A stretch of 64,000 nt of DNA from Legionella busanensis (GTDB taxonomy: Bacteria; Pseudomonadota; Gammaproteobacteria; Legionellales; Legionellaceae), in contig NZ_UGOD01000001.1 in assembly GCF_900461525.1 (NCBI RefSeq), positions 589,001 through 653,000 of the forward strand, given 5' to 3'. Under the pieces are notes generated by a model, which saw only the letters and a list, made by a program, of their open reading frames with translations, was not told the DNA's origin and ran no database searches. Of this stretch, positions 7,995-31,125 are shown one piece after another. Position numbers and translations under genes: made by a program. Each line of letters begins with the position of its first letter. The stretch's first letter is position 1.

Positions 7995-8046
7995 AAAAAT
8001 TTGTCTACATAACTTTTTTGAATTTTTCTGAAACTTACGTAACTAC

Positions 8047-15222: not shown

Positions 15223-16290
15223 TTATCTATTATTGTTAAAAATTTTTTCGTTCATGCTAGCAACAACTTTGCTGGTATGGGAGTCAGATAGGTGAGCGTA
15301 GCGTTTAACCATTTGAAGAGTTTTATGTCCTAAAATTTCAGCAATTTCTGCTAGGCTTGCGTTATTCATCGCTAGGTAAGAAGCACAGCTATGACGTAGA
15401 TCATGCCAGCGAAAATCATTAACTTGCGCACGCTTTAAGGCATTCTCGAAAGGAGTACGAAGATCAACTGGTTTAGTAAAGTCCTGATTAGGAAATACTA
15501 AGTCGCAACTAAGATGGCGAACTTTTGATAATTGATTAATTAATTCGAAAGCATGTCCTGTTAAAGGTAATAACCGCCTTTCACCATTTTTAGTTTCGTG
15601 TAAAATAATAACTTGTCGATTGAAGTCAATATCTTTCCAGTGCAATCCCATAAGTTCCATTTTTCGAGCTCCAGTTGAAAGAGCAAGAACGACTGCAGTG
15701 TAAAGATATTGACTTTCACTTTTTCTACACTCAGCTAACAAGCGGTTACGTTCATCATCCGATAGAAAGCGAACCCGGCCACGTGGTTCTTTAGGTTTTG
15801 TAACTCGGCGCATAGGTGAGTCTTCAAGCCATCCCCATTCTTTTACTGCCATAGTAAATGCATGAGACAGAGCTGCCATATATCGAACGACAGTAGAGGG
15901 AGAGCGTAATTTATTGCGGGTCGTTATTCCAGATAATAGCTTGTCTCTTTTTTCAGCTATAATAGATGGAGAAATATCTGCTAAGCTATATTGCCCTAAT
16001 TCCTCTTGCCACCATTTAAGATGGAGAATAGTGTTTCTACTGTTTTTAGGTTTATGAGGGATAACGTCTCTTATATACCGATCAAGCATTTCGCCAAGTG
16101 TTCTTTTTTTAGCCTCAGTAGTTTTGAAGTGTTTACGATTACGGATATCTACTTCGGTTTGTTGCGCCCATCGCGTAGCATCAGTTTTTCTGGCAAAGGT
16201 TGCCTGCTGGCTTGGGAAGCCTTTAATTCTTACTTTAACTCTGTAGCTAACTTTACCTTCTTTATTAATTCTTTCTTCAATACTGGCCAT
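15223..16290 (-). CDS. Phage-type tyrosine integrase
   Basis: A 355-residue tyrosine recombinase. The N-terminal ~60 residues look like an Arm-DNA-binding domain (KVSYRVKVRIKGFPSQQATF). A core-binding SAM-like domain spans about 65-165. The catalytic domain has STGARKMEL (Arg), HDLRHSCASY (His-x-x-Arg), ILGHKTLQMVKRYAH (His and nucleophile Tyr). All catalytic residues are present. It is the only integrase inside the 56-bp repeats and is the likely enzyme for tRNA-site insertion. Unusually it is about 7 kb from the left repeat and 15 kb from the right repeat. Confidence 0.92.
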   Translation of the reverse strand: MASIEERINKEGKVSYRVKVRIKGFPSQQATFARKTDATRWAQQTEVDIRNRKHFKTTEAKKRTLGEMLDRYIRDVIPHKPKNSRNTILHLKWWQEELGQYSLADISPSIIAEKRDKLLSGITTRNKLRSPSTVVRYMAALSHAFTMAVKEWGWLEDSPMRRVTKPKEPRGRVRFLSDDERNRLLAECRKSESQYLYTAVVLALSTGARKMELMGLHWKDIDFNRQVIILHETKNGERRLLPLTGHAFELINQLSKVRHLSCDLVFPNQDFTKPVDLRTPFENALKRAQVNDFRWHDLRHSCASYLAMNNASLAEIAEILGHKTLQMVKRYAHLSDSHTSKVVASMNEKIFNNNR

Positions 16291-16680: not shown

Positions 16681-16806
16681 AAAGAGAAATATATGCAAAC
16701 AAATTTAATGGATGGAAGTGTCATTGAAACAGAAGTTGGATCAAAAGAGAAATATATGCAGATAAATTTAATGGATGGAAGCGCCATTGAGATAGGAGTT
16801 GGAGCA
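16681..16806 (+). repeat. 63-bp tandem duplication at the 5' end of thrS-like gene
   Basis: Copy 1 (16681-16743) and copy 2 (16744-16806) both begin AAAGAGAAATATATGCA and differ at only several positions. The duplication is in frame, carries the ribosome-binding region and start codon, and so provides two start ATGs (16693 and 16756). It adds 21 residues to the N-terminus if the first is used. Confidence 0.85.
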
Positions 16807-18663
16807 AAGGGCTTTGATTTGGTGCGCCAAGTAAAAAAATCTCTTAATGGTCATCAGGCTGTAGCGCTTAAGGTAAATGATATATTTAAAGATCTTAATA
16901 CTGAGCTTCAAGACGGTGATACGATTCAAGTACTGACTTTTGATGATCCAGAAGGTAAGGAAATATTCTGGCATTCTTCAGCGCATTTACTTGCTCAAGC
17001 GATAGCGCGTTTATATCCTGAAGCAAAGCCTACTATAGGGCCCGCCATTGAATCAGGTTTTTATTACGATTTTGCTGATTTGTCGATTTCTGCTGATGAC
17101 TTTCCACAAATTGAGGCTGAAGTTCAAAAAATTATTCAAGAACGATTTGAGCCTAAACGTATTGAATATTCTGATAAAGAAGAAGCAAAAAGGGTGTTTA
17201 ACCATAACCCTTTTAAAATTGAAATGATTGAAAAACTAGATGAGGGTTTAAGCGCTTATTCTCAAGGTGAATTTATTGACTTATGTAGGGGCCCGCATAT
17301 TCCTCATCTCGGGATAGTACAAGCATTCAAGCTTATGAAAACTTCTGGTGCTTATTGGCGTGGTGATAAGAATAATCCGCAATTGACTCGGATCTACGGA
17401 ATTTCTTTTCCAGATAAAAAATTATTAAAGTCCCATTTGAATTTCTTAGAAGAAGCAGCAAAGCGTGATCATCGTATCATTGGCAAACAACTTGGTTTGT
17501 TTTCTTTTCATAAAGAAGGGCCCGGTATGCCTTTTATCCATCCTAAAGGGATGATTGTTTGGAATGAATTGATGCGATATTGGCAGGAACAGCATGATAG
17601 AGAAGGCTATAAGCAGATTAAAACGCCAATACTTATGTCTCACGAATTATGGGAAACATCAGGTCATTGGGATTTTTATCGAGAAAATATGTACCTTAGT
17701 GTAGTTGATGAAAAAACCAGTGTTTTAAAGCCTATGAATTGCCCTGGCGGCATGTTGTTTTATAAAGAAGATATGTATTCTTATCGTCAGCTTCCTCTAC
17801 GTATTGCTGAAGTAGGCGTAGTGCATCGACATGAGTTTAGCGGTGCACTATCTGGTTTATTCCGAGTGCGTTGCTTTCACCAAGATGATGCTCATATTTT
17901 TATGAAACCTACAGATATTGCTGATGAAATTCACAAGGTTTTATCATTAGCAACATCGATGTATAAATTGTTTGGATTAGATTATCACTTAGAGTTATCG
18001 ACAAGGCCTGAGCAATCTATTGGAACTGATGAACAATGGCAATTGGCAACAGATGGTTTAATCGAATCTTTAAATCGCTGCGGCTATACTTATAGGCTCA
18101 ATGAAGGTGATGGTGCATTTTATGGGCCTAAAATTGATATTCATATCCGAGATGCAATCGGTAGAACTTGGCAATGTGGAACCATTCAGCTGGACTTAAA
18201 TTTACCAGAGCGATTTGATTTAAATTACATTGACGCGAATGGTGAAAAACAACGTCCTGTTATGATTCATCGTGTGATTTATGGATCAATAGAACGGTTT
18301 TTTGGCATTCTTATTGAACATTATGCTGGTAAGTTTCCGCTCTGGCTAGCACCTATTCAAGTAACAATATTGCCTGTCGCCGAGAGCCATCATAATTATG
18401 CTGAGAGCGTATTAGAGCAATTTTTAGAAGCTGGATTACGAGCAGAAGTTGATTTTGATAATGAATCAATTAATAAGAAAGTGCGTAAAGCCCAGCTTAA
18501 ACAAATTAATTACATTATTGTAGTTGGGGATAAGGAGCTGACAGAGGGTACTTTAAGCGTAAGAGCAGCTAATAATCTTGTCGGTACTAAGCCTATTGCT
18601 GAGGTAATTAATAGTTTAAAAGATGAGTATCAAAGTCGCTCGCCTCGACGCAATACAGTTTAA
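16693..18663 (+). CDS. thrS: Threonyl-tRNA synthetase, probable second (immunity-type) copy
   Basis: A full-length ThrRS (656 aa; 635 from the second start). Domains: TGS (to ~80), editing domain with HSSAHLLAQA and DLCRGPH intact, class II core with MNCPGGM (zinc Cys), HQDDAHIF and MIHRVIYGS (zinc His), and a C-terminal anticodon domain. Editing and catalytic residues look functional. Housekeeping thrS is normally followed by infC-rpmI-rplT; here it lies inside a mobile island, followed by biosynthetic genes. ThrRS duplicates are known self-resistance genes in the obafluorin and borrelidin clusters, so an immunity role is inferred. Catalytic use in biosynthesis is the alternative. Confidence 0.9.
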   Translation: MQTNLMDGSVIETEVGSKEKYMQINLMDGSAIEIGVGAKGFDLVRQVKKSLNGHQAVALKVNDIFKDLNTELQDGDTIQVLTFDDPEGKEIFWHSSAHLLAQAIARLYPEAKPTIGPAIESGFYYDFADLSISADDFPQIEAEVQKIIQERFEPKRIEYSDKEEAKRVFNHNPFKIEMIEKLDEGLSAYSQGEFIDLCRGPHIPHLGIVQAFKLMKTSGAYWRGDKNNPQLTRIYGISFPDKKLLKSHLNFLEEAAKRDHRIIGKQLGLFSFHKEGPGMPFIHPKGMIVWNELMRYWQEQHDREGYKQIKTPILMSHELWETSGHWDFYRENMYLSVVDEKTSVLKPMNCPGGMLFYKEDMYSYRQLPLRIAEVGVVHRHEFSGALSGLFRVRCFHQDDAHIFMKPTDIADEIHKVLSLATSMYKLFGLDYHLELSTRPEQSIGTDEQWQLATDGLIESLNRCGYTYRLNEGDGAFYGPKIDIHIRDAIGRTWQCGTIQLDLNLPERFDLNYIDANGEKQRPVMIHRVIYGSIERFFGILIEHYAGKFPLWLAPIQVTILPVAESHHNYAESVLEQFLEAGLRAEVDFDNESINKKVRKAQLKQINYIIVVGDKELTEGTLSVRAANNLVGTKPIAEVINSLKDEYQSRSPRRNTV

Positions 18664-18683
18664 TCAGTTTTATAGGAAGTTGT

Positions 18684-19112
18684 ATGAAAGATAAAACGCA
18701 GGTAATTGAAGAAAAGAAAGAAAGAGTATGGTATGTAGGGCAATGCCATTGTGGTAATGTTAAATTTGAAGCTTCGGCTACTCGTAATTTAACAATCACA
18801 CTCTGTAACTGTGGTATTTGTTTTAAATCGGGTCACCAAGAGTTAATGGTTAAGGAAGAACACTTCAAATTGCATTGCGGTCAAGAATTTTTAAAGCCCT
18901 ATAGATTTGGGAACTGCATTGCTGATCACACTTTTTGTGTAGTATGTGGAATAATGCCTTTTTATAGGCCGCGTTCTCATCCGACAGGGTACTTTAGTGT
19001 AAATGCTCGGTGCCTTGAGTTAGATCAAGCAGAGCACATTGAATATGTAGAGTTTGATGGGCAAAACTGGGAAGAAAGCATAGCTGCTGGTAAACACAAG
19101 CTTACAGAATAG
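18684..19112 (+). CDS. GFA-domain protein (glutathione-dependent formaldehyde-activating-like)
   Basis: A 142-residue zinc protein of the GFA/Mss4-like fold. Cysteine clusters are GQCHCGNVKF near residue 20, LCNCGICFKSG near 40 and HTFCVVCGIMPF near 90, the pattern that binds two zincs in this family. GFA members act on or bind glutathione adducts of small aldehydes, but many are uncharacterised. It begins 20 bp after the ThrRS gene with an AGGAAG site and precedes the PLP-enzyme gene. A scavenging role for formaldehyde or another aldehyde by-product of the pathway is plausible but inferred. Confidence 0.8.
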   Translation: MKDKTQVIEEKKERVWYVGQCHCGNVKFEASATRNLTITLCNCGICFKSGHQELMVKEEHFKLHCGQEFLKPYRFGNCIADHTFCVVCGIMPFYRPRSHPTGYFSVNARCLELDQAEHIEYVEFDGQNWEESIAAGKHKLTE

Positions 19113-19162
19113 ATCGATAAAGTAAGTTAATTTAATTTTTACTTAAGTTGTAGTGCAGTTTA

Positions 19163-20296
19163 ATGAGTGATGATGAAGTAGAATATCACCAACCTAATCT
19201 AAGCAATATAGTACAAAGCAGTTGGCAATTTGCTAATCCTCCTATCTATCGAGGATCGACCGTTTTTTTCGATAGCTATGAAGCAATGAGCGATGAAAAC
19301 GTGCCTTATGTTTATGGAAGATGGGGGACGCCGACTGCTGATGCTTTTTGTAAAGCAATGACCGAACTTGAAGGTGGCGCGGGTACTATTGTTACTTGCT
19401 CTGGGCTGGCTGCGATTTCTACTATACTTCTTGCACTTACTTATCCAGGCTCTCATGTACTAATTGGTGAATCTTCTTTTCCTGCAGCACTGCGGTTCTG
19501 TGATGAAGTACTTAAGAAATTTGGCGTTATAGTCGAGAAATTTTCAGGTACAGATATAACGAAAATCAATGAGAAAATTTTACCAAGCACCGTCTTAGTA
19601 TATATCGATCTTCCAGGAAGCTATGGGGCAAATTTTTTTAATTTATTATCCATTAAAAAAAAATCAGATAAGACTTATATTTTAGTAGATAACACTTGGG
19701 CGACGCCTTTATTTTTTAATCCCTTAAAATATGGAGCAGATATCGTTGTTCATAGTACTTCTAAATACATAGCTGGCCATTCAGATTCTATTATGGGTTG
19801 TATTACTGTAGCTAATTTGAATTTATTTCAAGAAATTCAAAATACAAGTAGAGCATTGGGACAATATGCGGGCGCTGATGACTTAAGCCTTGCTATTAGA
19901 GGATTAAAGACACTTGAGCTAAGAATGAGACAACATTTTGATAGTGCTTTAAAAATTGCAACCTGGCTAACAAATCATACTGCAGTTGAAAAAGTTTTTT
20001 ATGCGGCTTTATTATCAGATGAAAATTACCAGGTTTGGAGTAAACATTTTAAAGGTGCAGGTGGAGTATTAACCTTTTTCTTTAAAAGGGCAATCGAAAA
20101 AAATTATCCGAACTTCTTAAATAAATTAAAAATAATAAAATTAGGTTGGGGATGGGGCGGATATGAAACTTTAGCATCAGCTTCTACTATCAATTTTGGT
20201 GAATATTTAGGTAGAATTGCAATACGATTAAGTGTTGGTTTAGAATCAACGGATAATATTCTTAAAGATCTAGAATTAAGTTTAAAAACTTTATAA
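19163..20296 (+). CDS. PLP-dependent enzyme, cystathionine beta-lyase/gamma-synthase type
   Basis: A 377-residue fold-type I Cys/Met-metabolism PLP enzyme. Seen are YGRWGTPTADAF near residue 52, LEGGAGTIVTCSGLAAI near 72, VDNTWATPLFF near 175 and the PLP lysine in VHSTSKYIAGHSD near 198. Closest in look to MetC-type beta-lyases, which also carry a Y-x-R-x-GTPT motif. Related enzymes in secondary metabolism catalyse beta/gamma-elimination or replacement, including alkyne formation by BesB. It is third in the thrS transcript and converges with the SDR gene (6-bp 3' overlap). The clustering argues for a biosynthetic role, not methionine metabolism. Confidence 0.88.
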   Translation: MSDDEVEYHQPNLSNIVQSSWQFANPPIYRGSTVFFDSYEAMSDENVPYVYGRWGTPTADAFCKAMTELEGGAGTIVTCSGLAAISTILLALTYPGSHVLIGESSFPAALRFCDEVLKKFGVIVEKFSGTDITKINEKILPSTVLVYIDLPGSYGANFFNLLSIKKKSDKTYILVDNTWATPLFFNPLKYGADIVVHSTSKYIAGHSDSIMGCITVANLNLFQEIQNTSRALGQYAGADDLSLAIRGLKTLELRMRQHFDSALKIATWLTNHTAVEKVFYAALLSDENYQVWSKHFKGAGGVLTFFFKRAIEKNYPNFLNKLKIIKLGWGWGGYETLASASTINFGEYLGRIAIRLSVGLESTDNILKDLELSLKTL

Positions 20297-21046
20297 TAAA
20301 AGATCAGCTCCGTTTATATCTATAGTAGCTCCATTTATATATGAGGATTGATCTGATGCGAGAAAAGAAATTAAATTGTAAATATCATCAGTAGTACCTA
20401 ATCGCCGCATTGGAATTTTTTCTGATTCCATATTAATTTTTTCTAACGTTGCCGAGTCACGTAATAATTCGGTATCAATTGTGCCAGGAGCAATTGCATT
20501 GATATTAATATTATATGGAGCGTATTCAAAAGCAGCGTGACGAGTAAGGCCTAAAATACCCGCTTTAGCTGCAGTATAGTGTGCGCCTGCAAAGGTACTG
20601 ATAGAGCGCCCGGCAGATGATGAAACATTTATAATCTTTCCATATTTATTTAATTTCATATGAGGCAGCACCGCGCGCATACAATAAAAAACACTATTTA
20701 AATCTATGCAAATAGTATCATTCCACTCAGCATCATCAATGAGCTCTAAAGGCCGAGTCAAGGGTGCTATAGCAGCGTTATTAATTAAAATATCTATTCT
20801 ATTAAACTTTTCTAGGGCTAAATTAATTATTTTATTACAATCAGCCGAATTAGCTACATTTCCTGGTGCCTCCACAAACGAAGGATCAAAAGGACTAATG
20901 ACTTCTACTGTTTGTTTCAATCGAGAACTATCGATGTCATTAAGTACTAGATTTGCACCATTTTGGGCAAAATTAATTGCAGCTTGGCAGCCTATCCCTC
21001 TACCAGCACCCGTAATAATTACAACTTTATCAGCAAATAATTTCAT
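20291..21046 (-). CDS. Short-chain dehydrogenase/reductase
   Basis: A 251-residue classical SDR. The Rossmann motif is VVIITGAGRGIG at residues 8-19, with NNAAIAP near 88, the catalytic Ser in INVSSSAG near 138 and Tyr-x-x-x-Lys in HYTAAKAGI near 155. An IAPGTIDTELL segment follows. It resembles FabG-like oxidoreductases with NAD(P)H. It is last in the six-gene minus-strand operon and overlaps the dioxygenase gene by 17 bp, so it probably reduces or oxidises a hydroxy/keto group in the same pathway. Confidence 0.88.
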   Translation of the reverse strand: MKLFADKVVIITGAGRGIGCQAAINFAQNGANLVLNDIDSSRLKQTVEVISPFDPSFVEAPGNVANSADCNKIINLALEKFNRIDILINNAAIAPLTRPLELIDDAEWNDTICIDLNSVFYCMRAVLPHMKLNKYGKIINVSSSAGRSISTFAGAHYTAAKAGILGLTRHAAFEYAPYNININAIAPGTIDTELLRDSATLEKINMESEKIPMRRLGTTDDIYNLISFLASDQSSYINGATIDINGADLLL

Positions 21047-21725
21047 TTTCTCTTCTTATGTTTGTTGAGGCTGGGTTATGACCTATTAAATTTTTGGAGC
21101 AAGCGGTAATGAGAACAACATCTCTATAACCATAATTCGCGTTTATGCTAGGGACTATTGGGGTAGAATAATGAAGAACTTCAGTATCACTAAGAATTAA
21201 TAAATTTCCTTCTGGGATAATTTTATCAAATATAATTTGGCCTAAACTATCTTTAACTTGGGTTTTTGCACCCGTTATATTCGTTCTTGAAACCACAAAA
21301 ATTCCTAACCAATCTATTCCGTCCCTATGAAATCCTTCTAGAGCAGTTAAACCTTGTTGATTAGAATGGCAATCTATTCGTTGCAATTGTACTAAAATAA
21401 CTTCCTCGCTTTTTAGTCGACATATAGTTGAGAATTTATAAAGGAGATTATAAAAGTCCTCTCTTTGATGTAGCTCATTGTCAATTGGCGAGTAATCTCT
21501 AACAATATTTCCATGAATCTGATTGTATTTTTTTTCTTGGAAAAGAGGATAGTGAGGTAAAAGCTTAAAGTTTTTGTCTTCTCCACAATGCCATGAAATA
21601 CTTTTATATCTAAATCCTTCCTGTACATAGGGATCTTTAGGGGAATTAGAAAAAAATTTACCCCATTCTTTTATTTTTACAATGTCGTTTAGATCAAAAA
21701 TACAGTACTTCATTTTTACAGCCAA
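21030..21725 (-). CDS. 2OG-Fe(II) dioxygenase (PF10014-like amino acid hydroxylase family)
   Basis: A 231-residue protein matching the 2OG-Fe_Oxy_2 group that includes bacterial isoleucine/leucine dioxygenases. Visible are VQLQRIDCHS near 118, the metal pair His-x-Asp in GFHRDGIDWLG near 135, a distal His in LILSDTEVLHYSTPI near 183, and GYRDVVLITA near 205 with the Arg that would bind 2-oxoglutarate. Family members hydroxylate free aliphatic amino acids. It lies between the SDR and an ATP-grasp gene, with overlap and 7-bp gap respectively. A hydroxylated amino acid intermediate is the natural inference. The start may alternatively be the Met at residue 5. Confidence 0.83.
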   Translation of the reverse strand: MAVKMKYCIFDLNDIVKIKEWGKFFSNSPKDPYVQEGFRYKSISWHCGEDKNFKLLPHYPLFQEKKYNQIHGNIVRDYSPIDNELHQREDFYNLLYKFSTICRLKSEEVILVQLQRIDCHSNQQGLTALEGFHRDGIDWLGIFVVSRTNITGAKTQVKDSLGQIIFDKIIPEGNLLILSDTEVLHYSTPIVPSINANYGYRDVVLITACSKNLIGHNPASTNIRRENEIIC

Positions 21726-21732
21726 TTATAAA

Positions 21733-23058
21733 TTATACTTCAACTAAAGACTGAGCTTTTTCGCCAATCTCTAGCATCAACGCGTCTCTTTCTTGTAATG
21801 AAAGGGGAAAAGCCCAGCCAACTTTGGCCCCGTGTGTTACATTGACAATACTATCTTCAATTGAACCTCTTACCACCAGGCCCGCAAATTGATCTAATAT
21901 TTGAAATAAACCTAAGACTATTTTATTTTCTATTCGTTCGAATTTTTCATTATCTGGCAAGTCAATCACTTCACATTGAATATATTCCTGAGCTGTTCCG
22001 CCTTTCATATTCTTTAAAGTGGTTGCTACATAATTGTCGTTGTGTTCTGAACCTACGCATACAGCTTCTCCACCATAAGAGCGATTAGCTTTAAACACAA
22101 AGTTATTCTTATTCTCTATAAGATAGCTAATATTATCTTGACGAATGGATATTGTGTAAGGGACGTATTTTAATATGGCTTGACGCTCTGCTTCGGTTAA
22201 TATTGACTGATATTGTTTATCATAAAATAAAGCAAACCATTTTTTATTACTTCGAATCTCTGTTTCAAAAGTATTAATAATAGTAGCGCCGCTAGCAAAC
22301 ATTTTTAAAAATAATGAATGACAATTTAAATCATCATATAGGGCAAGTCGATAAATAAGGGTTTTCTTTCCAGCATTTAAGTTGAGGAACTCTTCAGGAT
22401 AGTCTTCTTCTGTGGCGATAGAGATAGGGACCTCAGAAATAGTTTCTTTTACACTGTCTAAAAGACTTTTTACTGTGCCGCTTCCTTCTAATAAATATTT
22501 CTTTAAAGAAAAAATAATTACTCTCTCAAATTTGTTCTCTAAAACTAATTTATGTAAATATTTAGCTATAATTTTCCTTGGCGAGGCATAGGTGCTGATA
22601 TCACCTCCTATTGCGCTAAAATAACTACTAAAACAATCAAAAAACTTAATACCTCCAAGTGATGATTCAATATTTAGTTCACAAAATTTGTAGCCTTGAT
22701 TTGAAGGAATAATATCAGGTCTAGCAATAATTTTATTGCCTACTTTTAACTCATCCCAATCAATAAAAACCTTTGCCTCTTTAGGTAAGTCAAACATTTC
22801 TAGAATGTGATCTTGAGGGTATGTAGACAATAAAAAACTAAGAATTCTAGTTTGTGCTTGAATTAATAATTTACTAGCCTCACAAAGCTCTTCGTAGACA
22901 TATTTTTCCATAATTAGAGGTATCGGAAAAGTTGGATATTTCGCGCCATAATTTTTTAAAAAATTACTAACCTTTTGAATAGAACTATGGCTCTCGATAT
23001 TCGCTGCGTGAGAGAGAAAATTATCTACCCAAGGTTTATTGAATGTAGCAAATGACAT
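21733..23058 (-). CDS. ATP-grasp-type ligase, 441 aa
   Basis: A putative ATP-grasp carboxylate-amine ligase. The centre has NFVFKANRSYGGEAVCVGS (nucleotide-binding lysine and Gly-rich loop, near 315), AQEYIQCEVIDLP near 358, and GLVVRGSIEDSIVNVTHGA near 400, which carries the Arg and Asn expected for magnesium binding. The N-terminal half (FCELNIESSLGGIKFFD near 148) is reminiscent of glutathionylspermidine-synthase-like proteins. I cannot place it in a named subfamily. It is in tight operon with the dioxygenase and a second ATP-grasp gene, consistent with dipeptide or amide formation. Confidence 0.7.
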   Translation of the reverse strand: MSFATFNKPWVDNFLSHAANIESHSSIQKVSNFLKNYGAKYPTFPIPLIMEKYVYEELCEASKLLIQAQTRILSFLLSTYPQDHILEMFDLPKEAKVFIDWDELKVGNKIIARPDIIPSNQGYKFCELNIESSLGGIKFFDCFSSYFSAIGGDISTYASPRKIIAKYLHKLVLENKFERVIIFSLKKYLLEGSGTVKSLLDSVKETISEVPISIATEEDYPEEFLNLNAGKKTLIYRLALYDDLNCHSLFLKMFASGATIINTFETEIRSNKKWFALFYDKQYQSILTEAERQAILKYVPYTISIRQDNISYLIENKNNFVFKANRSYGGEAVCVGSEHNDNYVATTLKNMKGGTAQEYIQCEVIDLPDNEKFERIENKIVLGLFQILDQFAGLVVRGSIEDSIVNVTHGAKVGWAFPLSLQERDALMLEIGEKAQSLVEV

Positions 23059-23098
23059 AGTTCATTTCCCATAAAAAATTTTAGTCACATAAAAAATC

Positions 23099-24445
23099 TT
23101 AATTTAACAGTAAATTTAAGAACTCTTGTTCAAGCGTAACAGCATAAGACTCCGATTTTGCATACACCATATAATCAATAATCCCCCAGTTATCGATATC
23201 CTCATTCATAATAACTATTCCTGAGTGATTAGTTGTTGAGAGTTTTTCAGCCAAGTTAATAGCATGCGATAAATCACAAGTAGCGACATGATTACGAGTT
23301 AAAATGCAATGTGTATTTAAATAATTTGAGCCTAACAATTTTTCTGCGATAGGTTGTATGTGTGAGCATCCGCCTAAACGACCATTAATCTCGGTAAATA
23401 AGACTTTATTATCTTCAGTAACTATTGCATCGAAATTAATAAGCCCAACATACCCAAAGTTTAACAAAAGTTGCTTTAAAATTTCGCAACCATCTAAAAA
23501 TTGCTGGGTTATATTGGAAGGTAAATTACCTGGGATCTGAAATCCGATCCAATTTACTATGTCTTTTCCTTTGGCATCTTCAGTTTCGTCCATTCGAACA
23601 ATGCCATAGTTTTTAAGCTGGCAATCTTCTATTTTTTTTCCAATATAATATTCTGCATACAGGGTGTGCTTAGAGGGAAGGTATGATTCCACTACAATTA
23701 GATTGTTTCCTAATGAATCAACTAAGCTGTACCATAGCTTTTCTGATAATTCATAAGTAATATCTTTTATGCTACCTAACTTTAGAACTTCTCTGACTCC
23801 AGCATAACTTAAACGGTCAGATAAAGTGATCGCGATATTTCCTTCACCATTAGCTGCAAAATCCTTTTTGATGATAATCGCACCCACATTATTTATTTGT
23901 TGACGCATGACGTAATACAGCTCTTTCACAGAACGACATATATTTCCAGGGGCGATGGTAATATAGGGCGCAGCCAAAGCTCTAAAAGTAGCTTTACTAT
24001 TAAGCAAATTAATGCCAGATTGGTTCATAAAACTAGGCGTTTGAAACTTATCGTATGACAAACCTAATTCATTAGAAAAGCAAACAATAGAAGAACTAAA
24101 TATATAAGGAATTAGTTCCCACGTTTTATCAGAAATATGAGCTTTAAGCTCACAAATTAGTTTATCGTTAAGGAGGACTTCACTAGTTAAGATGCTAGAG
24201 TTATTCGAAGAAGCCATTAAAGGAAAAAAGTTTTTTGATGTAATGTTTTTATTCTTAATATGAGAAATATAGTCAATCATATATTTAGAGGGCATGGATG
24301 GAAGTATTAAGAGGTCATCTTCTTCTAACAGCCAAGCTAATCTTTTTGCGTAAACAGCTGCTGCTTGACGAGTAAAAATTGGCAGCTTAGAAACATCGCC
24401 AACCACAGCTTCACTATATACATTTCCTATCAACAATTTTGGCAT
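23099..24445 (-). CDS. PreATP-grasp/PGM1-like peptide ligase
   Basis: A 448-residue ATP-grasp protein. The N-terminal region has DDLLILPSMPSKYMIDYIS near 42, the look of a PreAtp-grasp domain as in the pheganomycin peptide ligase PGM1. The core has IIIKKDFAANGEGNIAIT near 193 (ATP-binding Lys), VVESYLPSK near 250 and FTEINGRLGGCSH near 355 (Glu-x-Asn metal motif). PGM1-type ligases join amino acids or short peptides through an acyl phosphate. It overlaps the desaturase gene by 16 bp. With the first ATP-grasp protein it suggests two successive amide bonds, or ligation by one and modification by the other. Confidence 0.76.
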   Translation of the reverse strand: MPKLLIGNVYSEAVVGDVSKLPIFTRQAAAVYAKRLAWLLEEDDLLILPSMPSKYMIDYISHIKNKNITSKNFFPLMASSNNSSILTSEVLLNDKLICELKAHISDKTWELIPYIFSSSIVCFSNELGLSYDKFQTPSFMNQSGINLLNSKATFRALAAPYITIAPGNICRSVKELYYVMRQQINNVGAIIIKKDFAANGEGNIAITLSDRLSYAGVREVLKLGSIKDITYELSEKLWYSLVDSLGNNLIVVESYLPSKHTLYAEYYIGKKIEDCQLKNYGIVRMDETEDAKGKDIVNWIGFQIPGNLPSNITQQFLDGCEILKQLLLNFGYVGLINFDAIVTEDNKVLFTEINGRLGGCSHIQPIAEKLLGSNYLNTHCILTRNHVATCDLSHAINLAEKLSTTNHSGIVIMNEDIDNWGIIDYMVYAKSESYAVTLEQEFLNLLLN

Positions 24446-25320
24446 GAGTTCATTTTTCCTGTATTGCTAATATTAATTAATTTTTTTATCAGCCTAATAT
24501 GCCAATGGAGGTATGACTTTTCTTGATAAAGAACAGAATCGGAATTTTTTTTAAATATTTGCTGTAAGCTTGAGCCAGCAAGGCCAGGATGCAGATGATG
24601 CTCTGCATGAAAGTTTCCGTTCCATAGAAAAAGGCGTACTAAATGATTAGATAAAATACTTCTTGACTCTGAATAGAAATTTGCGACTGGATTACAGTCT
24701 AAATGCTCTGGTAAGCCAAAAAATAAGATCCACATATATGAGAAGGACAGCGGAAGCCAATAGTAGTTAAGCATGGTAAGTGGGAATAAGCTGGTAAAAA
24801 TAGAAAATAAAATCAAGAGGAAGCAGATAAATAGGGTATCTAACATCGCCCTCCTTTTCTTACTTGGGCTATTAAGATAATAAGGGTAAACTTGCCATAA
24901 GACTTTTAAAGTTTTTGAGATTTTTGCAAAGGCTACGGGAAGCCCTGTCATAAAATAAAGATATTGTGTTAATGATTTGAATTGAATTTTTGTTTCTGTA
25001 TCTTTCTCAGTTCCAACATACTTATGATGTTGTAAGTGATGTTCTTTATAGATGGTAAAATTTATTAACAATAGGCTTGTAAAGAATCTCCCAACATACA
25101 TATTAATAAGCCTATTTTTTAGATATGTCTGATGCAGGCATTCATGAGCTAAATTCAAACCTCCAGCTAAAATAAATCCTAACGCTAAAGCAATGAATAG
25201 ACTAATTAGTAGGCTATGGGAGCGTACTAGAATAAGTGAAATATATGTAAAAAGAATAAGAGTTAATTTAAGAAGAGGGTATGAGGTTCTTACTCTTTTT
25301 CTACAATAACTCATTTGCAT
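24430..25320 (-). CDS. Membrane fatty-acid-desaturase-like diiron enzyme
   Basis: A 296-residue integral membrane protein of the fatty acid desaturase superfamily. The three histidine boxes are present: AHECLHQTYL near residue 68, HHLQHHKY near 103 and NFHAEHHLHPG near 243. Four or so hydrophobic segments (about 15-32, 37-55, 160-178, 183-205) surround them. Members desaturate, hydroxylate or make alkynes in acyl chains; some act on amino acids or carrier-bound peptides in biosynthetic clusters. It is second in the operon. The substrate may be an acyl tail or the amino acid scaffold; the sequence does not decide. Confidence 0.85.
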   Translation of the reverse strand: MQMSYCRKRVRTSYPLLKLTLILFTYISLILVRSHSLLISLFIALALGFILAGGLNLAHECLHQTYLKNRLINMYVGRFFTSLLLINFTIYKEHHLQHHKYVGTEKDTETKIQFKSLTQYLYFMTGLPVAFAKISKTLKVLWQVYPYYLNSPSKKRRAMLDTLFICFLLILFSIFTSLFPLTMLNYYWLPLSFSYMWILFFGLPEHLDCNPVANFYSESRSILSNHLVRLFLWNGNFHAEHHLHPGLAGSSLQQIFKKNSDSVLYQEKSYLHWHIRLIKKLINISNTGKMNSCQNC

Positions 25321-25353
25321 ATTACTCTATCCTTAAAGCTTATTTATAAATAA

Positions 25354-26106
25354 TTAATGTTCTAGGTTACGCCAACCAGATACTTTTGAAATTGAAGCAC
25401 TCCAATTTAAGCTTTCATATAGCGCTGTCATGGCATGGTGTTGAAATTTATCTTCTTCTTCTTTACCAACTACTAGTTCTAACATTTTATGTACCATTTC
25501 AATATGGTAGGCTTCAGCTGGATCATCCTCACCTACGTGAGTTTTAAAATAAATTAATTCGTTAGAATTGTGATTAAAATTTCTTCTAATTCCAGCCCAT
25601 AAAGATTCAATAATTGTATGGGCATGCATTTCAAATGCAACCATATAAGCACATCTAATCACAGCATCTCTATTACTTAAGCCGTCAATAAGCGATAGTA
25701 AATAACTACGAGTTGGCTCTGAAAAATCAGGAGTAACAGCTTTGCCAGTTAGAGTCTCAATATCATGCCTTAACAAGTTAGAATGGAACCATTTTTTTGT
25801 ATCTAATATATTCTGAAGTCCAGCTTTACCGAATCTCTCAATTATGTACTGGCCTCCTGTTTCATCCCAACAGAGAAAGTTACCCACAACACTTGTCATT
25901 TCTACATGAGAAGGGATATCGTGATTAGATTTTATAGAATCAAGAATAAGTGATAATTGAGAACCTGCCTGTATATAGGGGAAAGCTAGAGAAATTCCTA
26001 GAAAATGGGGAAATAAAGTAATTATTTGATCACGGGAATGTAGCTGATTAAAGGGATGCTTATTAAGCATTTTCATCGACTTATGCTTAAATAATTCATA
26101 TAACAT
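25354..26106 (-). CDS. Heme-oxygenase-like putative diiron oxidase (HDO / iron-containing redox family)
   Basis: A 250-residue all-helical protein. Candidate metal ligands are the Glu and His residues in AFEMHAHTIIESLW near 158 and the His, Asp and His residues of FKTHVGEDDPAEAYHIEMV near 190, matching the H...D..(x)H helix of HDO enzymes such as UndA, BesC and SznF. An earlier CWDETGG near 79 may give another Glu. HDO enzymes perform oxidative C-C cleavage, N-oxygenation or desaturation. First gene of the six-gene operon. TenA-like proteins are the alternative family, but the acidic/His ligands and context favour HDO. Confidence 0.76.
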   Translation of the reverse strand: MLYELFKHKSMKMLNKHPFNQLHSRDQIITLFPHFLGISLAFPYIQAGSQLSLILDSIKSNHDIPSHVEMTSVVGNFLCWDETGGQYIIERFGKAGLQNILDTKKWFHSNLLRHDIETLTGKAVTPDFSEPTRSYLLSLIDGLSNRDAVIRCAYMVAFEMHAHTIIESLWAGIRRNFNHNSNELIYFKTHVGEDDPAEAYHIEMVHKMLELVVGKEEEDKFQHHAMTALYESLNWSASISKVSGWRNLEH

Positions 26107-26490
26107 GTTTCACCACCGATACTGATTAGATTATCACTGTTTTTATTATTCATCTTCCTTAATGTTGTACAGCACCAGTTTGGAATTCTACTTATATCTG
26201 ACTTATTGTCAATAAAATTTCCCAGAAGGATTATACTTAAACAAATCTATTAAAAATCAGTGGCTTAGTTAAAAAGCTCTTTTGTAAAAAGAGTTATCTA
26301 ATTTTCAGGTAAAGGATGAATTCTCGATAAGTTGATTATTTTATTAGTCTTTTAAGAGCGTTATATAAACAAAGAAACATATTGATATTTGTTTTTATCT
26401 TGATACGCTAACTAAATTAGTGGACCTAGTTAAAAGAAGTGGCCCAGTTAATATAAAGAAACATCAATATAGACTTATCTGGATGATAAA
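26107..26490. promoter_or_regulatory. Divergent promoter region with AGTGGC-CAGTTAA repeats
   Basis: This 384-bp AT-rich gap lies between the divergent HDO operon and the methyltransferase gene. Three similar blocks occur: AGTGGCTTAGTTAAAAAG at 26259, AGTGGACCTAGTTAAAAGA at 26419 and AGTGGCCCAGTTAATA at 26438, the last two in tandem with a 19-bp period. They are candidate binding sites for a regulator of both sides of the cluster. No gene is seen in the gap. Confidence 0.42.
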
Positions 26491-27252
26491 ATGACTCAGA
26501 AGAATCCCAGCACTTACCTTGACCTTTGCACAGAAGTCTATGAGCTAAGCAAGCCCAATATAACACTAGATGCTTATCAGTTTTATCGAAGCTATGCTAT
26601 AGAGGCAGGAGGCCCTATTTTAGAACCAATGTGTGGTACAGGTCGTTTTTTATTGCCTTTATTTGAAGAGGGATTCGATATTTATGGTTTTGATGCAAGC
26701 GAGTCTATGTTAAAAAAATTACATGAGAAAGCAGCATCTAAAAATCTTAAACCTACTGTTTGGAAAGGGTTTATAGAAGAGCTAGAAAGAAAAGAAAAAT
26801 ATAAATTAATTTTTATTCCTACTGGTTCATTTGGCTTAATAACTGAGCCTCAAATTATTCAAGACACAGTAAAATTAATTTACGATCATTTAGAGCCAAA
26901 CGGTCTTTTTGTATTTGAAGTGGAAACTTCAACTGCTATTGGCAAGGAGCTAGGTATTTGGCATGGCTCTAGATGGCCCTTAGTAGATGGTAAAATTATT
27001 TTAATGAGCCAACTTATTGCACTGGAGGATGAAATCTGCTGCGCAATTGCTAAATATGAACTGGTTGAGGGTAATCAAGTTATCCAGACAGAAATTGAAG
27101 ATTATAAGATTCGCCTTTATAATGAGCCCGCATTTTTAGTTAATTTGTTAGATTCAATTGGATTTAGTAATTTGCGTCTGGTTAAAGCCTTCGATCGGTC
27201 TGCTTCTCCGAAAAAGGATGATATGAGCATTGTGTTTGAATGTAGAAAATAA
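26491..27252 (+). CDS. Class I SAM-dependent methyltransferase
   Basis: A 253-residue methyltransferase. Motif I is ILEPMCGTGRFLLPLFEEG near residue 37, followed by YGFDASESMLKKL near 62 (acidic residue after beta 2), FIPTGSFGLI near 108 and GLFVFEVETS near 143. The substrate is not evident; small-molecule O- or N-methylation is likely. It is transcribed divergently from the six-gene operon and shares its regulatory gap, so it may belong to the biosynthetic cluster. Independent cargo is the alternative. Confidence 0.82.
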   Translation: MTQKNPSTYLDLCTEVYELSKPNITLDAYQFYRSYAIEAGGPILEPMCGTGRFLLPLFEEGFDIYGFDASESMLKKLHEKAASKNLKPTVWKGFIEELERKEKYKLIFIPTGSFGLITEPQIIQDTVKLIYDHLEPNGLFVFEVETSTAIGKELGIWHGSRWPLVDGKIILMSQLIALEDEICCAIAKYELVEGNQVIQTEIEDYKIRLYNEPAFLVNLLDSIGFSNLRLVKAFDRSASPKKDDMSIVFECRK

Positions 27253-27619
27253 TTAGAGTTAGGTATTAAAATTGAATTTTATTATCATCCTTACCTAAGA
27301 GCATCGACCTTACTTGATCGCAAAGCTAATCTTACCATCTTTCCCGCTACTTTGTTCAATACTTACCATTTTAATAGCTATAAATCAATACAAGCCACAC
27401 TGTACAAGACTAAACATAATAGTTAATCCCCTAATAATTTATGATAAGATTATGATAAATAGTAATATATTTGTATACAAGAAGCCCTGGGGCACTAGTG
27501 GACAGTGATTTAAAAGACTCAATATTTCTTAATTTCAATTTGTGTATTAAATTAACAAATTAGAGCAATTGGGTTTTATTTTATCTCGGACTAAAAATCT
27601 TTTAATAATCGGGGTTGAT
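27253..27619. other. Intergenic region with TGTCC/GCCCC block at module junction
   Basis: The 367 bp between the methyltransferase and PIN genes contain no convincing gene. At 27488-27504 the sequence TGGGGCACTAGTGGACA is a reverse-oriented relative of the paired boxes at 8220 and 31071 and may mark the left border of the PIN/helical-repeat module. Nothing else notable is seen. Confidence 0.35.
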
Positions 27620-28600
27620 ATGCCATTATTAGGGAATTGTCTAATTTTCTTAGATACTGGTTTTTTCACAAATTACAAACCTAACGATAACCTTTATGAT
27701 GAAGTATGGAAACGTGCCAAAAATGATGGTTTGAAATTATGCACTTCTTGGATATGTATTGAAGAATGGAAAAGCCAAAAAATCAAGCACCTCACTAAAT
27801 TCTTAAAAGATATGAGAGACCAGCAGATTTATCATTGTAGGCAAAATTTCTTTTCTCAAAAGTTAATTTTAGAACCATTATATGCTGAGTTCGAGAACGA
27901 GGCCTATGTGCGTGATAAAGTAGAATATTTACTTCAAGATTTCTTAAAATCAAACAAAATTAAAATATATCCTGCAAAAGACGAACATATTCCTTCAACT
28001 TGGAATGGATATTTCACGGGGGCTCCTCCTTTTCAGAAAATAAAAAATAAAGAAGATTTACCTGATGCTTGGGTATTTGAAGGTGCGAAAAACGCACTGA
28101 ATGATCCTGAACACAATGCATTTGAATTAAAATACTGTATTTCTACTGATGGTGCATTGTCCAAATATCTCAGTGAATTAGGTTATACCTCTATTAAATT
28201 GAATGAATTAATTGAAATCTTGCGGAAAGAAGAACTCGAAGTTGTCGACGAGCCAGTAGTTCAGCCTCAACAGCAAGTGATATTAGTGAATGATGAAATT
28301 GAAATGGGACCTCTTGATAAGCTCTTAACAAAAACGGTTCTTATACAAGATAGTGAAATTTATTTGCGACTATTAGGCTATTTAGTAGCATTAGATGCCC
28401 CAACCCATGAGACTCTCTTAACCATGGTAAGTTCAAGAGGGTACGACTCTAAACGTGTAGAAGCTTGTGCAGTAATGCTTTCAGGAGAGCCTAATCCTTA
28501 TATTAAAGATCTTGGAACACATTATATTGTTGGGAATAAAGAAGTTTGTCATGCTGCTAGTGAAAGAGTGATGGATGAAATCATTGGAATGTTGGAGTAA
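27620..28600 (+). CDS. PIN-domain ribonuclease-like protein with C-terminal extension
   Basis: A 326-residue protein (the frame also opens with a TTG at 27569, but ATG 27620 fits better). The PIN active-site acids can be followed in order: LIFLDTGFF (Asp), CIEEWKSQK (Glu), KEDLPDAWVFEGA (Asp) and YCISTDGALSKYL (Asp), over the first ~200 residues. This resembles the PIN-like DUF4935 group. A ~110-residue helical tail (LDKLLTKTVLIQDSEIYLRL and after) follows. PIN enzymes are metal-dependent RNases. The gene is 8 bp upstream of a large helical-repeat gene. Both form a two-gene operon next to the island's tRNA end, a usual place for defence cargo. Confidence 0.76.
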   Translation: MPLLGNCLIFLDTGFFTNYKPNDNLYDEVWKRAKNDGLKLCTSWICIEEWKSQKIKHLTKFLKDMRDQQIYHCRQNFFSQKLILEPLYAEFENEAYVRDKVEYLLQDFLKSNKIKIYPAKDEHIPSTWNGYFTGAPPFQKIKNKEDLPDAWVFEGAKNALNDPEHNAFELKYCISTDGALSKYLSELGYTSIKLNELIEILRKEELEVVDEPVVQPQQQVILVNDEIEMGPLDKLLTKTVLIQDSEIYLRLLGYLVALDAPTHETLLTMVSSRGYDSKRVEACAVMLSGEPNPYIKDLGTHYIVGNKEVCHAASERVMDEIIGMLE

Positions 28601-28608
28601 GAGTAATC

Positions 28609-31029
28609 ATGGATCTTAAACAAAAAAAGAAAATTATTGGTTTTCTTATTACTAAGGCAAATAAAGACCCGCGTGCTCTTAATGCAATTAAAAGTGAGCT
28701 TAAAAAAGCTGATGGAGAGTTAAAATCGAGTATTGAATTCGATGCTATATCAGAACAAATTGCAATCCTAAAGATTATAGCCCGGCTCTTTCCTAAAGAG
28801 GTTGTGTCAATATATCTTGAACTCCTTCCTCGCTTAAATTCCATTGAGTTAAGTTATACAGAAATTTCTAATATTTCATTAGATGGTTTTAAAAGCATAT
28901 ACACTAAGGAAAAATTAATCATTCAAATATTTAATGCCTTAGAAACTGTACGTTATCATGACATTGAAAAAATTCTAAATATTCTTTTTGAATATACTAT
29001 TCATGAAGATGAAGAGGTTAGGAAGCAAGCAACTAGAGGGCTTGAAGCCATTGCTCAATATAATTTAGAAGTCTTTTCTGGTGATGGAAAAGAGTTTCAT
29101 GGTTTAGGATGGTGGCCACAAGAAAAAACTGTTGAAAAAATTCAATCTTTTTCTAAAAAGGAATGGAAAATATATTTAAATACTATTTTTTCGTGTATTC
29201 AAAAAATTCTATCTCCTTCAATTAAAGGAGCTTCGTGGGGATACGATACTGTCACACTTAAAACAGCGTCGGTACCCCCAGAAGAAGGTCTAATCAAATT
29301 ACGGCAAAATGCTTTAAAACTTTTAAAAGAAATTTACTTCGAACTGGCTAATCCTGAGACCAAAAAAAAATTATTGGATGTGATGCTAACAGCCACAAGG
29401 TTTTCTAGTGCCTCCCAACGAACCAAACAAATAGAACAAATGATAATATGTAATACAACGTTTGTTCTGCAATTTATGAGTGACTGTATTGTTGAATCAG
29501 AAGACCTCCAAGTACTACAGACTATAGAGCATGATGCCTACTGGCTTTACTATCATTTAGGGAGCTTGAGTCCCGATATAAAAAAAGCGGGATTAGTAGT
29601 GAAAAAGAAACTGGATGATAATGAGGAATTTCAAATATTTCGTGTACTCATTGGGTTTGAAAGTATTTTTCATGACTGGGAAGGAGAACGAAAAAAAGAG
29701 CATTTTGAACAGGAAAGAAAAATAAGGGAAGAAAAGATTATTGAGCTTGTTCGAGATATTAATGACCAAAATTATGAAGCCTGGAAAGGCCGTATTTTTC
29801 AATATGCTGCTATTCGCTCAAATGATATGGCGACTTTTCCTTATTTTGGGAAGTTCTTAGAGTGTTTGGGAAAAGAATCGTCTGAAATCGCGATACAACT
29901 GCTATCAGAGTTTCCCGAAGAACTTGAATGGTTTATTGTTCCAATTCTACGAGGAGTTGAGCAAAGCCCTAAAAAAAATGTGCTTTCTAGTCTTATTTCC
30001 TCTTGGATTAGAGATGGTATTTTTTTTCTTGCTGTTGCAAGGTTCTTACAATTTACCACCAGCTTTAAAATATCTACTCTAAAAAAATTATTTGATAAAG
30101 CTAAGCCATCAGAAAATACTCATTTTTTAAGTCAAATAATTGTTACTTCAGCTGCACAACATACAAACAGTGATAATAAACTTATTAATGAAGTTATGAT
30201 ACCTGCTATTGAGAAATGCACAGAACTACGATATCCAAACTGGATATTTGATTTGTGGTTCAGTAAAGAGTATGTCAGTGTATTCCATAAAATGAATGAA
30301 GGTAACTATGATGTTATTTTAACAAATCTACTTTGGCTAAAAAATATTGGTCATGAAGCTGAAGAGATCTTATTACCCATTGCTGAACATGTCCCTCAAA
30401 GGATAGTGCGATTCTTCTGTGAACGAATCATTCTGCCTCAGGAGAAGTCTGATGATAGATTTGAGGCTCTTCCATTTCAATTTAGCTCGCTTTCTGAGCC
30501 TCTTTCTAAGGTTCCAGAGCAGATAATTAAATTGATTCTATCCTATAAGAAATTTGACGATAGATTGTTTACTTATAATGCTGCGAGGTTATTAAATTTA
30601 ATTTTTCCAAAACTTGAAGAGCAACCTGCTTTTGAAAAATCACTGATTCAGCTTGTGAATAAGGGTGGTGACCTTACTCTCTTTTTTATTGCCGATATAT
30701 TACGTGGTTATGACGGTAATAAGTCCATATATCCAATATGCAAAGAGTTGATCAAGGTTGCGAATAGCAACGAGGATTTACTTAATGCTGTAGCCATTGC
30801 TATGCAATCAACGGGAGTTGTTGAGGGTGCAGAAGGTTTTATATTTATCTATGAAGAGAGAAGGAAAGAAATCGAAATGTGGTTAGACGATCAAAATCGT
30901 GAAGTCGTTCTTTTCGCTAAAAATTACATAGTAATGCTTAAGAGGCAAATTGAGGCAGAAAAACAACGTATATCAGAAGATGAAGCACTGAGAAGGCATC
31001 AATATGGTTTAGATGATGAGCAAAGGTAA
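28609..31029 (+). CDS. Large alpha-helical (HEAT-like) repeat protein, 806 aa
   Basis: Almost entirely alpha-helical, with HEAT-like segments such as DEEVRKQATRGLEAIAQYN near residue 140 and others spread to the C-terminus. There are no transmembrane segments, no Walker motifs and no recognisable catalytic site. A coiled-coil-like charged stretch lies near 360-385 (EGERKKEHFEQERKIREEK) and another at the C-terminus. Such proteins commonly act as sensors or scaffolds. It is coupled to the PIN gene (8-bp gap), so it may recognise a trigger and control the nuclease. I do not recognise the exact pair as a named defence system. Confidence 0.68.
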   Translation: MDLKQKKKIIGFLITKANKDPRALNAIKSELKKADGELKSSIEFDAISEQIAILKIIARLFPKEVVSIYLELLPRLNSIELSYTEISNISLDGFKSIYTKEKLIIQIFNALETVRYHDIEKILNILFEYTIHEDEEVRKQATRGLEAIAQYNLEVFSGDGKEFHGLGWWPQEKTVEKIQSFSKKEWKIYLNTIFSCIQKILSPSIKGASWGYDTVTLKTASVPPEEGLIKLRQNALKLLKEIYFELANPETKKKLLDVMLTATRFSSASQRTKQIEQMIICNTTFVLQFMSDCIVESEDLQVLQTIEHDAYWLYYHLGSLSPDIKKAGLVVKKKLDDNEEFQIFRVLIGFESIFHDWEGERKKEHFEQERKIREEKIIELVRDINDQNYEAWKGRIFQYAAIRSNDMATFPYFGKFLECLGKESSEIAIQLLSEFPEELEWFIVPILRGVEQSPKKNVLSSLISSWIRDGIFFLAVARFLQFTTSFKISTLKKLFDKAKPSENTHFLSQIIVTSAAQHTNSDNKLINEVMIPAIEKCTELRYPNWIFDLWFSKEYVSVFHKMNEGNYDVILTNLLWLKNIGHEAEEILLPIAEHVPQRIVRFFCERIILPQEKSDDRFEALPFQFSSLSEPLSKVPEQIIKLILSYKKFDDRLFTYNAARLLNLIFPKLEEQPAFEKSLIQLVNKGGDLTLFFIADILRGYDGNKSIYPICKELIKVANSNEDLLNAVAIAMQSTGVVEGAEGFIFIYEERRKEIEMWLDDQNREVVLFAKNYIVMLKRQIEAEKQRISEDEALRRHQYGLDDEQR

Positions 31030-31089: not shown

Positions 31090-31125
31090 GGAGGTCATAA
31101 TTTTCTTGAGATTACTCGTAACTAA

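Follow-up and report, generated by a model that had tools for sequence, protein, structure and literature searches.

The 64,000-nucleotide stretch of the Legionella busanensis genome analysed here (NCBI RefSeq assembly GCF_900461525.1, contig NZ_UGOD01000001.1, positions 589,001 to 653,000; hereafter the window, with positions counted from its first base) carries a second threonyl-tRNA synthetase (ThrRS) gene, whose product we call ThrRS2, within an island of about 23 kb between two 65-bp repeats of tRNA-Met, the tRNA-Met standing next to rpoD. ThrRS2 is followed by genes for a GFA-family protein and a Cys/Met-type pyridoxal phosphate (PLP) enzyme, which face six minus-strand genes with intergenic spacings of 33, -16, 40, 7 and -17 bases, as in one operon. 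All ten reading frames, listed here with a promoter-like site, lie where an earlier note, made from the letters alone, had placed them.

16693..18663, plus strand: ThrRS2, second threonyl-tRNA synthetase (TIGR00418, 673 bits, cut-off 384)
18684..19112, plus strand: GFA-family protein, from a narrow subfamily that accompanies PGM1-type ligases (PF04828; 60-65% homologues in 3 of 184 matching plasmid records)
19163..20296, plus strand: Cys/Met-metabolism PLP enzyme, cystathionine-lyase type (PF01053 3.2e-89; STSK motif)
20291..21046, minus strand: short-chain dehydrogenase/reductase (SDR) oxidoreductase (PF13561 5.7e-58)
21030..21725, minus strand: 2-oxoglutarate (2OG)-Fe dioxygenase, PF10014 family (PF10014 7.1e-45; HxD present, HRD at residue 133)
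21733..23058, minus strand: g6, probable ATP-grasp ligase, circularly permuted or glutathionylspermidine-synthase type (CP_ATPgrasp_2 and GSP_synth matches)
23099..24445, minus strand: g7, PGM1-type ATP-grasp peptide ligase (PreATP-grasp PF18604; PDB 8ynd 1.2e-34, 3wvq (PGM1) 3.7e-24)
24430..25320, minus strand: membrane di-iron desaturase/hydroxylase-like enzyme (FA_desaturase PF00487 2.2e-33; three His boxes)
25354..26106, minus strand: haem-oxygenase-like (HDO-fold) enzyme, HDO below (profile-profile match to PF14518 set)
26185..26212, minus strand: promoter-like site before the six-gene operon (11 of 12 consensus positions matched; consensus match only)
26491..27252, plus strand: methyltransferase, travelling with the cargo (PF13649)

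The ThrRS2 gene is complete, as the earlier note had it, and its product has the TGS, editing, catalytic and anticodon-binding domains. The genome, of 3.93 Mb, has its housekeeping thrS at another place (genome positions 2980102-2981778, contig C1), adjoining infC, rpmI, rplT and pheS (neighbours named by eye), and the two proteins are 42% identical. The genome therefore has two full-length ThrRS genes, one of them beside infC-rpmI-rplT, which is the pattern of a duplicated target. The possibility raised beforehand, that the island gene is the essential copy relocated, falls away with this.

The enzymes were assigned with differing firmness. The best PDB matches of the PLP enzyme are cystathionine beta-lyases, and the PF10014 dioxygenase is, from its HxD motif, probably a hydroxylase rather than a halogenase. 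Two ATP-grasp ligases had been read at the locus beforehand: g7 is one on the strength of PF18604 and its PGM1-type matches, while the case for g6 is weaker. The window's g6 has no significant Pfam match of its own and no relevant PDB sequence match; at a lax limit CP_ATPgrasp_2 is matched weakly by 3 of 3 members (below the curated cut-off in the one shown) and GSP_synth by one member of three (4.8e-8), which makes a circularly permuted or glutathionylspermidine-synthase type of ATP-grasp the probable assignment. For the desaturase-like protein the best NCBIfam model was GntB, far below cut-off, and a PDB sequence search gave no match whatever. The window's HDO had no direct Pfam match and no relevant PDB match; three of five aligned members match PF14518 (best 1.6e-5), the window's own not among them. 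When the five-row profile was compared with 17 PF14518-found proteins (17 of 20 loci used), hhalign gave a probability of 95.4% (E 1.8e-8), against 0.1-0.9% for seven controls (two unrelated profiles and five column-shuffled ones), which supports the HDO-like fold proposed before. Structure prediction from two-row alignments yielded no usable fold (mean pLDDT 37.7 for the HDO-like protein, 32.6 for g6). None of the ten genes belongs to the nonribosomal peptide synthetase (NRPS) or polyketide synthase (PKS) families by Pfam, again as previously noted. The promoter-like site is weak evidence for the operon, since the region has 32 such sites against a mean of 48 in shuffles.

To place the cluster, Legionellaceae genomes were surveyed for ThrRS2 (143 and 140 genomes) and for the HDO and g6 (140), the two enzymes scanned genome-wide. 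ThrRS2 is present in 6 of 143 (likewise 6 of 140). The HDO occurs in four of 140 genomes and g6 in the same four: L. busanensis, L. gresilensis (G008), L. drozanskii (G466) and G001. These are a subset of the six with ThrRS2, which stands beside the enzymes at all four loci. When named species genomes were scanned with the HDO alignment, two relatives came up: L. gresilensis, with a nearly identical cluster, and L. drozanskii, where nine genes lie in the same order at 74-91% identity. The co-occurrence of nine genes proposed earlier thus holds, colinearly, in L. drozanskii and fails in part in G001, where ThrRS2, PLP enzyme, g6, HDO, desaturase, g7 and GFA are accompanied by another methyltransferase and a major facilitator superfamily (MFS) transporter, and the SDR and 2OG dioxygenase are lacking at the locus. 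The methyltransferase at 26491 had also been counted with the cluster. It is present and is shared with the L. gresilensis cargo, but is probably outside the core because it has no match in the 15.7 kb compared of the L. drozanskii locus. Just before ThrRS2 in G001 (L009 330-5135) are UbiA, dehydroquinate-synthase-like, unknown and phosphodiesterase proteins, a run resembling Ebo-type operons.

Two of the six genomes, G457 and G025, have ThrRS2 without the cluster enzymes. Apart from a weak SDR match, none was found in 18 kb around the G457 gene, nor any in the stretch around that of G025, and the HDO and g6 are absent from both genomes. In G025, the gene downstream of ThrRS2 is a prematurely ended GFA beside transposase-like sequence (transposase by eye); the production locus has therefore probably decayed there, ThrRS2 staying intact. 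The earlier note had counted separate occurrence of thrS and enzymes as evidence against a link. It is seen in one direction, ThrRS2 without enzymes in two of six genomes, and not in the other, enzymes without ThrRS2 in 0 of 140. Since ThrRS2 is found alone while the HDO and g6 never are without it, we read the pattern as support for a resistance gene and not as refutation: a biosynthetic ThrRS should vanish with its enzymes, whereas one that gives resistance could remain or spread further, and the observed pattern, with only two orphans, fits the latter.

Outside the family the cluster was not encountered. The HDO was found in 3 of 369 class genomes, L. busanensis and two distant relatives without the cluster, and neither the HDO relatives (G312, G211) nor the g6 relatives outside Legionellaceae whose surroundings were viewed (G355, G256 and G257; the weak-match genomes G400 and G168 were left out) lie in it. 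The HDO relative of G211 is upstream of MNIO/DUF692-like and glycosyltransferase-like proteins (L018 9750-12877; both by eye). G475 carries a further second ThrRS, of another kind (40.8% identity).

ThrRS2 has been transferred by itself. Between L. drozanskii and G457 it is 99.1% identical in protein with a dS of 0.16, against 2.62 for the housekeeping thrS (NG86 calculation, own script, here and below); between L. drozanskii and G025 its dS is 0.38, and that of the housekeeping thrS is saturated. In nine ThrRS2 pairs that include an orphan, dN/dS was 0.02-0.07; the orphan genes are therefore kept functional by purifying selection. The comparison of L. busanensis with G001 is of another kind: ThrRS2 is 90% identical and GFA 73%, whereas the five other shared enzymes are 41-53% identical, as if one ThrRS served two enzyme sets. 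For this pair the dS of ThrRS2 (1.22) is similar to that of the housekeeping thrS (1.32), and so gives no sign of recent transfer. The dS of the cluster enzymes is mostly saturated, and that of GFA (142 codons) already saturates against L. drozanskii, so the contrast with G001 is one of protein identity.

ThrRS2 looks to be of foreign, clostridial-type origin. A tree of 48 ThrRS (including 7 of 24 Legionella housekeeping rows) grouped it with two clostridial rows at a support of 0.956, on a long stem and apart from the Legionella housekeeping enzymes. A search of a plasmid set gave 67 matching records (10 listed, 5 inspected in sequence), the first two from Bacillota at 52% and 51% identity, a small difference from the 43-50% seen in the class sample. 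The short tandem duplication at 16693-16760, which repeats the ThrRS2 N-terminus and leaves a second possible start at 16756, is not seen in the copies of G001, L. drozanskii, G457 and G025. Upstream, the five loci aligned have in common no more than a few tens of bases just ahead of the start, with a longer match common to L. drozanskii, G457 and G025. An Rfam scan of the window returned tRNA alone, no systematic search for leader peptides or leader RNAs having been made otherwise.

The ThrRS2 sequence reads as that of a working enzyme with changes of its own. The editing motifs HxxxH and CxxxH read intact, which does not prove activity. Seventeen positions are invariant in the six ThrRS2 and absent from 41 other ThrRS, among which they are at least 80% conserved (one row, L051, was left out). 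Two of them, S387 and F390, fall in the motif-2 region (E. coli His371 and Met374); five, F588, D589, S592, N594 and N606, are in the anticodon-binding domain, and D408 and L429 are also among the seventeen. In an alignment with E. coli ThrRS, the zinc, threonine and catalytic residues are kept (by eye; residue roles partly from PMC9880928). All six ThrRS2 also have His396, which adjoins the equivalent of the threonine-binding Gln381.

The vehicle of the cluster looks phage-satellite-like. The remaining features of the island are as follows.

8038..8102, no strand: left attachment-site copy, 3' end of tRNA-Met (direct repeat, 65 bp, 98%, 56 bp exact)
10457..10876, minus strand: small terminase subunit-like protein (phrog_309 E 3e-9 and 6 other terminase families)
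10965..12788, minus strand: phage-type DNA primase/helicase (phrog_239 E 5.1e-121; Toprim, AAA_25)
12791..13663, minus strand: phage-type replication initiation protein (phrog_16167 E 3.9e-24)
14123..14350, minus strand: AlpA-like small DNA-binding protein (named by eye)
15223..16290, minus strand: tyrosine integrase (PF00589 1.1e-33, phrog_1)
27569..28600, plus strand: PIN-domain protein, cargo passenger (PF16289; identity profile)
28609..31029, plus strand: 806-aa protein, cargo passenger (no Pfam, PADLOC or PHROG match)
31117..31181, no strand: right attachment-site copy, inside the 3' part of tRNA-Met (31136-31212, minus strand)

That the island is bounded by tRNA had been said before, and the 65-bp direct repeat both confirms and sharpens it. 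A further tRNA-Met 3'-end copy lies just before the window (genome 588745-588821) and other genomes of the genus have similar fragments, so that this tRNA seems to hold tandem elements. In Pfam the terminase-like protein matches HTH_Tnp_1 best (1.3e-6) and Sf6_terminase only at 0.0061. No capsid family was found among the island proteins scanned, some small reading frames being outside the scan. The attachment repeats in a tRNA, the integrase and the replication genes are shared with phage-inducible chromosomal islands and P4-type phage satellites, as may be the small-terminase-like gene and the lack of an identified capsid gene. Unlike these, the island has a cargo of about 15 kb that includes a biosynthetic cluster and an aminoacyl-tRNA synthetase.

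The whole cargo has also been transferred. An identity profile of the island against L. gresilensis in 500-bp pieces fell into two parts. From 8.0 to 16.5 kb, nine of 17 pieces match in part (67-89%) and eight have no match, and the backbone proteins are diverged (integrase 83%, primase 65%, terminase 60%). From 16.5 to 31.0 kb, the pieces are 99.4-100% identical, as are the ten cargo proteins (99.4-100%); the core genome beyond the island is at 89-99%, with one piece unmatched, and the dS of the housekeeping thrS is 0.38. With near-identical cargo on diverged backbones, a block of about 15 kb was recently shared between two species with different satellites, which suggests cargo exchange between satellites. 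The satellite backbone had no match in the stretches around the L. drozanskii, G001 and G457 ThrRS2 copies, and in the G025 stretch there was one weak terminase-like match, overlapping the transposase-like sequence.

Parts of the enzyme set recur on plasmids. Matches to g7 were found in 18 of 72,556 plasmid records and matches to GFA in 184, three of the latter above 60% identity (the next among the matches listed being 33.6%); these three (Kocuria, Rhizobium leguminosarum WSM1689 and Rhodococcus) are all among the 18 g7 records. The surroundings of g7 were viewed in nine of the 18 and held a PF10014-type dioxygenase in four (assigned by Pfam for three and by annotation for Rhodococcus), GFA in three, and a desaturase, a Cys/Met PLP enzyme and an HDO in one each. 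In all four of the resulting clusters (R. leguminosarum WSM1689, Rhodococcus sp. AQ5-07, Kocuria sp. TGY1120_3 and Paraburkholderia aromaticivorans) a PGM1-type ligase goes with a PF10014-type dioxygenase, and in three with a GFA of the same subfamily; the desaturase belongs to Rhizobium, the PLP enzyme to Kocuria and the HDO to Paraburkholderia. They differ from the Legionella cluster in their other enzymes and in having no ThrRS match in the stretches compared. Since GFA recurs with PGM1-type ligases across plasmids, it appears to belong to the pathway, as an enzyme of a narrow subfamily. The simpler idea that it cleans up formaldehyde for the HDO is weakened, as GFA adjoins such ligases in three plasmid stretches without a tblastn match to this HDO (other HDOs were not searched), though 2OG enzymes may also release formaldehyde; the window's own HDO has no match in the plasmid set at all. 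On the P. aromaticivorans plasmid, genes for an HDO, a PGM1-type ligase, a PF10014 dioxygenase, a dehalogenase, an aspartyl-hydroxylase-like protein and an MFS protein lie together as a related cluster (L141 7789-15131). On Priestia sp. J2 plasmid pA (L140 8010-9935), the neighbours of thrS are a cyclodipeptide synthase with its P450, a ketoacyl synthase and an MFS transporter, which may be a further case of thrS going with a cluster.

We propose that the small product of this mobile cluster is directed against ThrRS and that ThrRS2 is the gene for self-resistance to it, and put the probability of this reading at roughly 60%; the target, the resistance and the product chemistry are what we infer from the genes. 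One or more amino acids would be oxidised by the HDO-fold enzyme, the desaturase-like hydroxylase, the PF10014 dioxygenase and the SDR, and the side chain reshaped by the Cys/Met-type PLP enzyme. The two ATP-grasp ligases would join or cap the result, giving a hydroxylated amino acid or a di- or tripeptide. This product, or an amino acid freed from it in the cell, could then fill the threonine site of ThrRS or be charged instead of threonine, while ThrRS2, of clostridial type and with its own motif-2 changes, would continue to make Thr-tRNA. Threonine analogues, beta-hydroxynorvaline among them, serve ThrRS well as substrates, and the product of the bes pathway is incorporated at threonine positions, presumably via ThrRS (PMC10250548). 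BesC, an HDO, converts chlorolysine to an allylglycine with release of ammonia and formaldehyde (PMC13108848). These facts are a precedent for a threonine mimic from these enzyme superfamilies and no proof of kinship. An extra ThrRS as immunity is established for ObaO, which has Ser for Gly463 and Met for Leu489 (PMC11252418).

The closest known systems differ in their enzymes. In the obafluorin cluster of Pseudomonas fluorescens, as here, a second ThrRS (obaO) is tied to a natural product and the housekeeping copy lies elsewhere. The earlier note had set the present system apart from obafluorin, rightly in that none of the six ThrRS2 has the ObaO signature (G463S is absent) and no NRPS is among the ten genes; ThrRS2 also groups with clostridial ThrRS and occurs alone. 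Borrelidin clusters likewise have an extra ThrRS alongside as self-resistance, with a PKS that is lacking among the ten genes. With the bes pathway for beta-ethynylserine in Streptomyces cattleya, whose product is described as a threonine antimetabolite, the cluster shares HDO-fold, Cys/Met-type PLP, ATP-grasp and Fe/2OG enzymes, at the level of superfamilies. The bes lysine halogenase has no Asp/Glu in its Fe motif; the sole 2OG enzyme of the ten genes keeps HRD (HxD), so no BesD-type halogenase is seen. The desaturase-like enzyme, second ATP-grasp, SDR and GFA are extra to bes, and we know of no ThrRS in that pathway. A literature search gave no recognised description of the gene set; many subscription papers were outside its reach, and it is no proof of absence. 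The main text of a paper on Legionella secondary metabolism (PMC5126622) is without the terms threonyl, tRNA synthetase, ATP-grasp, drozanskii and gresilensis.

Several observations weigh against a self-resistance role. The substitutions that mark ObaO are not in ThrRS2, where the equivalents of Gly463 and Leu489 are unchanged and FYGPK and LNLP stand in all six. MNCPGG, HRHE and IFM, positions at which the gammaproteobacterial ThrRS examined mostly or always differ (L043 gave no ThrRS frame passing the filter there), were considered as resistance-like changes and rejected, two clostridial ThrRS carrying the same residues. The changes in the anticodon domain (residues 588-606) are unexplained by immunity at the amino-acid site. 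No exporter was identified in the cargo. There was no tblastn match to ThrRS in six plasmid stretches compared, and the pathway kernel is not always in need of a nearby ThrRS. The contrast between ThrRS2 and the enzymes in G001 may come partly from different evolutionary rates. Finally, the four producers count as three independent lineages, because L. busanensis and L. gresilensis carry the same cargo, and the orphan cases number only two.

Of the other explanations, the one that survives best, though we consider it unlikely, is that ThrRS2 serves as an auxiliary ThrRS of general use (under zinc limitation or stress, or against the inhibitors of other microbes) and moves on islands, its link with the enzymes being a passenger association. 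Such enzymes exist: in Anabaena, low zinc induces a second ThrRS, T2 (PMC4787780). T2 has impaired editing, however, and the editing motifs of ThrRS2 read intact (motifs that leave activity unproven). That ThrRS2 moves alone would suit an auxiliary enzyme, as would thrS on plasmids (the 67 records, with one Bacillus copy next to a heavy-metal ATPase gene). Against this, ThrRS2 adjoins the enzymes in three independent lineages spanning two rather different enzyme sets, and the enzymes were never found without it in 140 family genomes.

We give a good deal less credence to ThrRS2 as a biosynthetic enzyme, one providing threonyl-tRNA or a mischarged tRNA for a pathway step that depends on tRNA. 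This would fit the substitutions at otherwise conserved positions of the anticodon-binding domain, and ThrRS2 always adjoins the enzymes where these were found in the family; yet the ten genes include no tRNA-dependent transferase of known type, both ligases look like ATP-grasps, and the orphan genes are under purifying selection without enzymes. Equally improbable is that the product has no bearing on ThrRS, being for instance an amino acid for metal binding or signalling, that ThrRS2 guards against an outside threonine analogue, and that both are ordinary island cargo. The kernel clusters elsewhere, without a ThrRS match in the stretches compared, and the apparently unrelated cargo genes at 27569-31029 might suggest this. 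Against it, L. drozanskii and G001 have ThrRS2 adjoining the enzymes with no match to the satellite backbone in the stretches compared, so that sharing an island of this type does not account for their being neighbours in these two genomes.

Extending the self-resistance reading, we would more tentatively see in the cluster a new family of threonine antimetabolites, small and ATP-grasp-ligated, carried on Legionella phage satellites, whose clostridial-type immunity ThrRS spreads separately to non-producers and in which GFA is a dedicated pathway enzyme across phyla rather than a formaldehyde scavenger. A cluster with a duplicated target is of a kind already known; its vehicle is unusual. A target-duplicated ThrRS is among the few sequence signs that reveal what an uncharacterised natural product hits. 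If the proposal is true, the cluster would reach a ThrRS-directed compound by different chemistry, with neither NRPS nor PKS, and such clusters have probably been overlooked by finders built on those enzymes. The trio of GFA, PGM1-type ligase and PF10014 dioxygenase, for which we know of no described pathway, would give a handle on that pathway in several phyla. For Legionella, the proposal would mean that a biosynthetic cluster moves as cargo between different phage satellites and that a resistance gene spreads apart from production in natural populations, giving a system of producers and resistant non-producers within one family.

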